Positions 42,827 through 45,020 of a DNA stretch of 64,000 nt are shown in pieces (the stretch's first letter is position 1; the number at the start of each line of letters is the position of its first letter). The stretch spans positions 1 through 64,000 of the forward strand of contig JBBPIG010000009.1 in the NCBI GenBank assembly GCA_038040445.1, written 5' to 3'. A program made the position numbers and the translations under genes. The stretch comes from Acidobacteriota bacterium (GTDB lineage: Bacteria; Acidobacteriota; Blastocatellia; UBA7656). Below the pieces are notes generated by a model that ran no database searches, was not told the origin of the DNA, and saw nothing but the letters and a program-made list of their open reading frames with translations.

Positions 42827-42830
42827 GAGA

Positions 42831-42990
42831 AGTCCGTTGTCCGTAGTGCGTAGTCCGTTGTCCCTTGACGGCGGGCATCCGCGCGAAGGTGCATCCTCCA
42901 ACGACGGCCACTATCCCGCATCAAACGATCGTCGACGGACTGTTGACGACAGCCTACGGACTACGGACCACGGACTACGGACTATGGACT
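42831..42990. repeat. GTCCGTAGTCC word-repeat palindrome, copy 1
   Basis: Left arm AGTCCGTTGTCCGTAGTGCG then TAGTCCGTTGTCC; right arm CCTACGGACTACGGACCACG then GACTACGGACTATGGAC. About 90 bases lie between. The right arm supplies the ATG of the next gene. A larger copy is at 51041-51212. Confidence 0.8.
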
Positions 42991-43688: not shown

Positions 43689-43886
43689 ATTCAGGGCTTC
43701 CAATCAAGAAAAGCGATGCTAGAAGTAAGAGCCGGTCGTAAAGGCGTAAGAAGCGCGGTCCTTGCTAGTGGCATTGCCGCCCGAACAGCGACCCATGATC
43801 GCCAGGACTGTAGCACGCGATCGGTGGGATCAAAAAAAGAGGAAGCGCAGCTAAACGTGAGGTGCGGCTCTTCAGCTAGTGTGTCC

Positions 43887-44318
43887 TTAATTGATGAAGG
43901 GAACGCTAGGTTTTACTTCTATTTCTACCTGCTTTTTGTACTCCTCAAACTTGATCATAAAGTTACAAAAAAATCCGTATCGCCCTAATATTGTCATATC
44001 CGGATATCTTTCTGAGTCAGTAAACGCAACAAGGGTGTCTACACTTCCCACGTCCTTGATTGCTATGTTCACCTGATGTAGATAGCCAGCAAATTCGTTT
44101 CCTTCCATAACCCCAGCGAGGCGGAGCTTCTTGCCCTTCTTGAGATCCACGTTGAATATCTGAGCAAAAGAGGCATTCAATACACTGTAATCTGCACCGG
44201 AATCTATCAGAGCCCACACTGGTAATACTATCTTGTTACACGTAATGCGGACTGACACAATCGGTAATTGTACGAGATTGCCATCTGGGTCTTTATACTT
44301 GCGGTACGGAATGATCAT
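43887..44318 (-). CDS. Retropepsin-like aspartic protease (clan AA)
   Basis: A 143-residue single-domain protein. The catalytic signature is PVWALIDSGADYSVLNASFA, with the DSGAD core, and the C-terminal ILGRYGFFCNFMIKFEEYKK matches the ILGR.GFF partner motif of bacterial retropepsin-like proteins. Active enzymes are homodimers, each giving one Asp. It overlaps the start of nothing downstream but its ATG overlaps the TGA of the DUF5678-like gene (ATGA), so both are co-translated. Codon use and base composition are clearly more AT-rich than the neighbours, a sign of transfer. Confidence 0.88.
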   Translation of the reverse strand: MIIPYRKYKDPDGNLVQLPIVSVRITCNKIVLPVWALIDSGADYSVLNASFAQIFNVDLKKGKKLRLAGVMEGNEFAGYLHQVNIAIKDVGSVDTLVAFTDSERYPDMTILGRYGFFCNFMIKFEEYKKQVEIEVKPSVPFIN

Positions 44319-44524
44319 AAGAACGCATACACATAAGATTTTCCAAACGGTCGAACCTTGAATAGGGCCGCTTCGCTATATCCATTTGCATCCGCTTGGA
44401 CTTTGGCCTGATAAGCGGTATCTCCACTTCCGACAACCCTATCTTCACTCTCAAGGATTGCAACCCACTTATTCTCATAGTTCCTGAGATCGTCTTCTAG
44501 CGGTCCTCTTTTCTCTTCAGCCAT
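44315..44524 (-). CDS. Small DUF5678-like protein paired with the aspartic protease
   Basis: About 69 residues from the ATG giving MAEEKRGPLEDDLRNYENKW. YENKWVAILESEDRVVGSGD followed by a helix YQAKVQADANGYSEAALFKV is the pattern of DUF5678-type proteins. An upstream in-frame ATG exists, but it lies within the boundary repeat. Small proteins of this kind regularly sit next to retropepsin-like genes, which suggests substrate, regulator or antitoxin-like partner. The role is not known. Confidence 0.7.
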   Translation of the reverse strand: MAEEKRGPLEDDLRNYENKWVAILESEDRVVGSGDTAYQAKVQADANGYSEAALFKVRPFGKSYVYAFL

Positions 44525-44789
44525 AATCACTCTCCCAGGGGAGATTCTACCGTAAAAGACCAATATTAGGGACACTTTCTTGTCGTCAATGCCTGATCAT
44601 TTTAGTAATGAGCTAAGAAATGAACTGCCAAACCTGCACCGCCGATGGAAGATGAAATTACAGATCATTTTCTGCGATTGCACCGTGCTTGGCAGATGCA
44701 ACCGCTTCTTCGATCCAGTCTGTACATACCGGCGTTTGTATCACGCCCCGTTCTGAGCCGCAAGTGCAGTCTAGTTGCACGCTTCACCT

Positions 44790-44936
44790 GCGGCAACACA
44801 CTGTGACGCCACTACCCGGTTGGGAGACGACCTGGCGCCCGGTGACTACATCTTACAGATCATCGTCACAGACAAGCGGGCGAAAGAGAAATACCGCTGG
44901 GCTACGCAGTGGATGGATTTCGAGATAGTGAAGTGA
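44790..44936 (+). pseudogene. 3' remnant of a secreted Acidobacteria-type protein
   Basis: In one frame the sequence ends GDDLAPGDYILQIIVTDKRA, KEKYRWATQWMDFEIVK and a stop. This is the kind of beta-sandwich ending found in VWA-related or GWxTD-type secreted proteins of Acidobacteriota (LAPGDY.LQI.V.D). Nothing upstream continues the gene. The rest of the 44576-45023 gap shows only fragments and a palindrome. Confidence 0.5.
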
Positions 44937-44949
44937 AGAGTGATGGGCC

Positions 44950-45020
44950 AGTGATGCGTGAAGTGATTCGTGATGCGTGAAAAGCAAACCCGAATGCGGT
45001 CACGCATCACGTTTCACGCT
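44950..45020. repeat. GATGCGTGA palindrome, second location
   Basis: GTGATGCGTGAAGTGATTCG then TGATGCGTGA on the left; TCACGCATCACGTTTCACGC on the right. It lies just beyond the antiporter stop codon and could terminate it. Confidence 0.7.

Follow-up and report, generated by a model that had tools for sequence, protein, structure and literature searches.

A conserved gene pair of a DUF5678 protein and a retropepsin-like protease in Acidobacteriota, possibly a toxin-antitoxin-like module

Introduction

The window analyzed here, a stretch of 64,000 nt at the start of contig JBBPIG010000009.1 from an acidobacterial genome assembly (class Blastocatellia), contains two small overlapping genes, one for a retropepsin-like aspartic protease and one for a 69-residue protein of the DUF5678 family, and it raises the question of what such a protease does in the company of so small a partner. 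An original prediction, made from the letters of the DNA, read the two genes as a mobile, toxin-antitoxin-like (TA-like) and undescribed module bounded by GTGTCCYTAAT inverted repeats; it called for a survey of the neighbors of such pairs and a comparison with empty sites, and named as evidence against itself the absence of the repeats at other copies or the loss of the catalytic aspartate in most of them. Prokaryotic single-domain proteases of clan AA have been called little known (PMC2642776), and DUF5678 (PF18929) has no function assigned in Pfam. We ask in turn whether the two genes belong together, what each protein resembles, whether the partner may restrain the protease, and how the pair came to lie where it does.

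Two overlapping genes that recur together

Both predicted open reading frames are real (Table 1): the stop codon of the DUF5678 gene and the start codon of the protease gene overlap as ATGA, and the protease exceeds the Pfam cut-off for Asp_protease_2 (25.6 bits against 24.3), with the partner scoring slightly below that for DUF5678 (21.9 bits against 23.2). L014, a close relative of the window partner, matches DUF5678 with 32.7 bits, and 132 of 134 partner proteins do so at E 0.01 or better. The deviant base composition claimed for the pair is likewise present (43.4% GC, compared to 56.8% in the window). Promoter-like matches of the kind found 5' of the DUF5678 gene are no commoner than in shuffles, and the right arm of the inverted repeat falls inside the listed match.

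Table 1. Positions of the features discussed, in window coordinates
Feature	Position	Strand	Remarks
Left repeat arm, GTGTCCTTAAT	43881-43891	plus	Overlaps the stop codon of the protease gene; read as chance
Retropepsin-like aspartic protease, second gene of the pair	43887-44318	minus	143 aa; motif L-I-D-S-G-A-D (DSGAD)
DUF5678 protein, first gene of the pair	44315-44524	minus	69-aa ORF
Promoter-like match, TTGACG-16-AATATT, 5' of the DUF5678 gene	44562-44589	minus	Consensus scan only
Right repeat arm, GTGTCCCTAAT	44565-44575	minus	Judged a chance match
3' remnant of a VWFA-related gene	44800-44936	plus	A same-genus genome has this gene intact and in tandem behind the same HAD gene; marks the replacement in which the pair lies

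We collected 143 loci, which were searched with profiles from members like the window's own (window-type) and from the main type of the family. DUF5678 genes occur patchily, in 50 of the 147 genomes of the class, with a maximum of 12 copies per genome. Among 136 distinct DUF5678 genes, a protease gene lies directly downstream on the same strand at 102, is convergent at 7, stands one gene further at 2 and is missing at 25; if only the loci ascertained through DUF5678 are counted (n = 112), the corresponding numbers are 87, 0, 1, and 24. Starting from the protease, we found DUF5678 at 21 of the 22 loci ascertained in this way, and the one without it ends at a contig edge; a second, profile-based sample held 60 proteases with DUF5678, 4 without it, and 2 at contig edges. 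The four comprise two truncated remnants, one locus with a frame-broken DUF5678 gene, and one with a PDC-M52A partner (see below). The neighbor survey that had been called for thus brought out recurrent linkage in both directions, forward at 87/112 and reverse at 60/64 testable loci. The pair also appears in all five of the DUF5678-bearing genomes found outside the class (5/5), and the named relatives are mostly metagenome-assembled genomes of Acidobacteriota, with one from Methylomirabilota. These data establish the DUF5678-retropepsin pair as a conserved two-gene module.

The two proteins have also diverged together, partner and protease distances being correlated with a Mantel r of 0.79 (null maximum, 0.24) and of 0.48 in 42 main-type pairs. 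Given the paralogues, this co-divergence is more than a signal of species, yet linkage alone could produce such a correlation. No natural DUF5678-protease fusion was present among the 143 loci. The seven convergent, tail-to-tail pairs all belong to the window-type subfamily (L017, L018, L019, L023, L024, L025, and L033), and in six of them the 3' ends overlap by 2 to 23 nt. A plasmid collection and a phage collection, in both of which Acidobacteriota are poorly sampled, gave no match to the pair, nor did a DUF5678 scan of viral contigs or a first contig scan with the window protease as query give any match. Two contigs classed as viral (L144 and L145) each carry a DUF5678-retropepsin pair.

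The protease and its relatives

The window protease bears the D-[ST]-G-[AS] catalytic motif of clan AA in the form DSGAD, and far from being lost in most copies, the catalytic aspartate has been retained by 117 of the 120 proteases aligned. A histidine in the predicted flap region, H81, is present in 12/12 window-type members and kept in at least 90% among 63 proteases. The AF2 model has a retropepsin fold (pLDDT 93, pTM 0.85), whose best solved match is APRc of Rickettsia conorii (5c9f; Z 13.5 over 118 residues), although APRc has only 15% identity to the window protease. Fold and D-[ST]-G-A motif are shared with the bacterial retropepsins used for comparison, namely, the Pseudomonas osmotic-stress proteases (PMC12239564), the RimABK-linked protease (PMC11957791), and the COG5550 and COG3577 families (PMC2642776); the available portions of the descriptions of these proteins and of APRc contain no DUF5678 pairing. 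Read by eye, neither sequence of the pair has an obvious signal peptide, and we therefore assume that both proteins act in the cytoplasm.

The protease gene is often found decayed. At least nine loci have a split protease frame beside an intact DUF5678 frame, though assembly error may account for some of them. In the window's own genome, the protease frame of two paralogous pairs (L008 and L009) is disrupted right at the catalytic aspartate, in one through a deletion and in the other apparently through a single base, where assembly error is again possible. At a further locus, L264 (G005:C164:56000-59400), about 950 nt separate the two halves of one protease, which looks like the result of an insertion.

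Among the PADLOC families, the window protease matches PDC-M52B (PDLC04692) nearly end to end (E 2e-7, residues 7 to 137), and 21 of 63 family proteases match PDC-M52B and 7 of 63 match PDC-M08B. The PDC families are phage-defense candidates found by guilt-by-embedding and are mostly unvalidated (PMC12988326). The protease is, then, of a kind already catalogued as an unvalidated phage-defense candidate. In a literature search that covered neither preprints nor most subscription papers, we found no DUF5678 function, no retropepsin-type TA system, no account of PDC-M52, and no DUF5678-retropepsin pair. The claim of an undescribed system does not hold in full, since the protease is homologous to PDC-M52B and PDC-M08B.

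The DUF5678 partner, on the other hand, matches no PADLOC family, PDC-M52A included, and the PDC-M52A model finds nothing in the window's genome. A profile comparison of PDC-M52A, an 86-position family, with DUF5678 and its N-terminal segments returned a probability of 2.8%, that is, no detectable homology, and the idea that PDC-M52A is related to the DUF5678 N termini was dropped. PDC-M52 resembles the window pair in having two small genes, a small partner and then a retropepsin-like protease, and differs in that the two partners are not homologous. At four loci of the class (L208, L209, L210, and L211), a PDC-M52A-like small gene stands directly before a retropepsin-like gene, which indicates that proteases of this lineage have no fewer than two kinds of small partner, unrelated to each other. 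PDC-M08A was rejected as a partner, since its two matches do not adjoin such a protease.

The partner protein

The AF2 model of the 69-aa partner (pLDDT 84) has the order helix-strand-strand-helix-strand and ends in a tail, SYVYAFL, that is modeled with low confidence (low pLDDT, residues 60 to 69). A Foldseek comparison of the model with the PDB gave no significant match, which does not make the fold new. The pattern of the tail varies by type, with GGW or similar in the main type and [FY][IV]P in most window-type members. Relatives carry additional segments fused to the N terminus of DUF5678: ribbon-helix-helix (RHH; 5 proteins), RelB/Phd-like (5), swapped-hairpin-like (4, assigned by pattern only; the two that were scanned did not match Pfam), and an LPxxE segment that is short and helical (60). 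By Pfam, the window partner consists of the DUF5678 domain only, without a recognizable DNA-binding domain. In the searched library, the sole paper naming the family is on a plant-parasite topic. The DUF5678 profile also gives a weak match (E 4e-4) to PurF, a large enzyme of which it covers only a part, the PRPP region; this is possibly a chance resemblance of strand-loop-helix segments.

Does the partner restrain the protease?

In type II TA systems, antitoxins typically place interchangeable DNA-binding domains before a constant domain that binds the partner. The pair shares with such systems (of the RelB/Phd and RHH types) its gene order, small size, and ATGA overlap, and its relatives share the modular DNA-binding N termini and the orphan partner genes. 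It differs from them in having a predicted aspartic protease in the place of the toxin, in that the window partner has no DNA-binding domain, and in the 7 convergent pairs (compared to 102 co-directional ones), at which a classical TA co-transcription is impossible. Orphans are distributed asymmetrically: 24 of 112 DUF5678 genes stand without a protease, compared to at most 1 of about 61 full-length proteases without DUF5678 (Fisher p = 1.8e-4).

Taken together, the conserved linkage, the intact aspartate, the co-divergence, the partner-first order with its ATGA overlap, and the fused antitoxin-type N termini argue for a TA-like design, as do the orphan asymmetry, the split protease frames, the many paralogues, the patchiness, and the homology to a phage-defense candidate. 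Against it count the convergent pairs, the lack of matches in the plasmid and phage collections, the genes around the window pair, which to judge from their ORF translations are housekeeping genes and form no defense island, the lack of a DNA-binding domain in the window partner, and the fact that an antitoxin-like N-terminal domain is recognizable in only about 14 of 136 relatives. On balance, we favor the reading that the pair is a TA-like module in which DUF5678 restrains the protease, and give it a probability not far short of even. The original proposal of a mobile TA-like module is thus kept in one half, the recurrent two-gene TA-like anatomy with a protease in second place, and lost in the other, mobility, as its repeats are absent elsewhere.

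Under such a design, the protease would be a small retropepsin that acts in the cytoplasm as a homodimer and damages the cell when left unrestrained. Produced first from the shared mRNA, the DUF5678 protein would bind the protease and keep it inactive, probably by means of the flexible, conserved tail at the C terminus of DUF5678; if DUF5678 were lost, for example under stress or on infection by a phage, the protease would be set free. In many relatives, fusion of DUF5678 to an antitoxin-type DNA-binding domain could allow autoregulation of the operon, a domain that the window copy does not have. Should the partner indeed restrain the protease, DUF5678 would gain a function, aspartic proteases would join the toxin-like effectors, and the PDC-M52-type candidate would become a testable two-gene design, of which a genome of Acidobacteriota can hold as many as 12 copies; to enzymologists, a protein that naturally inhibits a retropepsin would be of interest as well. 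We consider it rather doubtful that the pair stands for a new class of TA or abortive-infection systems, with a retropepsin as toxin and DUF5678 as a dedicated inhibitor bearing interchangeable antitoxin DNA-binding domains; if that class were true, the DUF5678 family would consist of natural inhibitors of bacterial retropepsins.

The orphan asymmetry follows equally if DUF5678 is an obligate activator, and so does not separate inhibition from activation. A two-subunit regulatory or defense protease, in which DUF5678 serves as obligate activator or substrate adaptor and toxicity is not the default of the pair, is unlikely in our estimate, although several findings suit it: linkage, co-divergence, and the absence of protease orphans fit it equally, convergent pairs exist without co-transcription, and in the homologous PDC-M52 pair the small partner is an unrelated protein, so that the general scheme may be a protease with some small helper. 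The 24 of 112 DUF5678 genes without a protease speak against such a role, and antitoxin-type N-terminal domains would be unexpected in an adaptor.

The flexible conserved tail could also be read as a target of the protease. If the DUF5678 protein were a dedicated substrate, cleavage would remove this tail or free an N-terminal regulator and so act as a regulatory switch, a possibility consistent with the co-divergence and with the varied N-terminal DNA-binding domains of relatives. We judge it quite unlikely, because members like that of the window have no N-terminal domain to release and no shared cleavage site was identified.

Improbable, finally, is a housekeeping pair, for example for stress or quality control, that has no toxin role and spread by duplication and lateral transfer. 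The genomic surroundings of the window pair would suit it, and such roles are reported for bacterial retropepsins already described (PMC12239564 and PMC11957791), but the distribution is patchy (50/147 genomes of the class) with many paralogues, the protease is often decayed, and it is homologous to defense candidates.

The inverted repeats and the insertion site

The repeats had been taken to bound the segment and make it mobile. In the 6.75-Mb genome, these two are the only exact copies of GTGTCCYTAAT, and one-mismatch copies are not in excess (20, compared to 20 for a reversed control pattern). An equally good repeat arises in 79 of 1,000 dinucleotide shuffles (7.9%; two 100-nt end zones). 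Some repeat of this kind is found at 9 of the 87 pairs with flanks examined, all of them different, and GTGTCC occurs at the window's pair only, its absence from all others being what the original prediction had named as evidence against itself. Neither do the arms bound the segment: the left arm overlaps the stop codon of the protease gene, and beyond the right arm the sequence stays AT-rich to about position 44724. No target duplication or transposase was seen at the pair. Given the shuffle frequency, the absence at other pairs, the stop-codon overlap, and the lack of a target duplication, the repeat is best read as a chance-level match that delimits no mobile element. The comparison with empty sites yielded neither a clean empty site nor a clean junction, as relatives carry VWFA genes at that place (G001, for one). 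A repeat-bounded element of the MITE or cassette type, for which one could cite the confinement of the repeat to both ends of the pair in this genome, the AT-richness, and a location that is a lineage-specific replacement, was therefore rejected as highly improbable, considering also that none of the other 86 pairs has GTGTCC, that terminal repeats are not shared between pairs, and that the stretch without homology (about 43701 to 44820) is larger than the repeat-to-repeat span.

The neighboring HAD gene has one ortholog in each of the 7/7 family genomes searched. In the same-genus genome, two VWFA-related genes follow it in tandem, and in G004, a VWFA 3' end likewise lies downstream of it; the window retains a 3' remnant of such a gene (Table 1). 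From our reading of the search result, the nearest relative of the window pair that the same-genus genome holds is at another place, with an unrelated long gene on one side and a probable serC on the other. In this lineage, the gain of the pair thus went along with the loss of the VWFA genes, in an event that ignored the repeats. Since relatives have VWFA-related genes at that place, we infer that the pair is a recent local gain through some recombination event and not through repeat-bounded transposition. Short intergenic repeats are also seen near gene ends in the vicinity, at 44928-45020 and at about 42830-42990 (GTGATGCGTGA; CGGACTAC-type).
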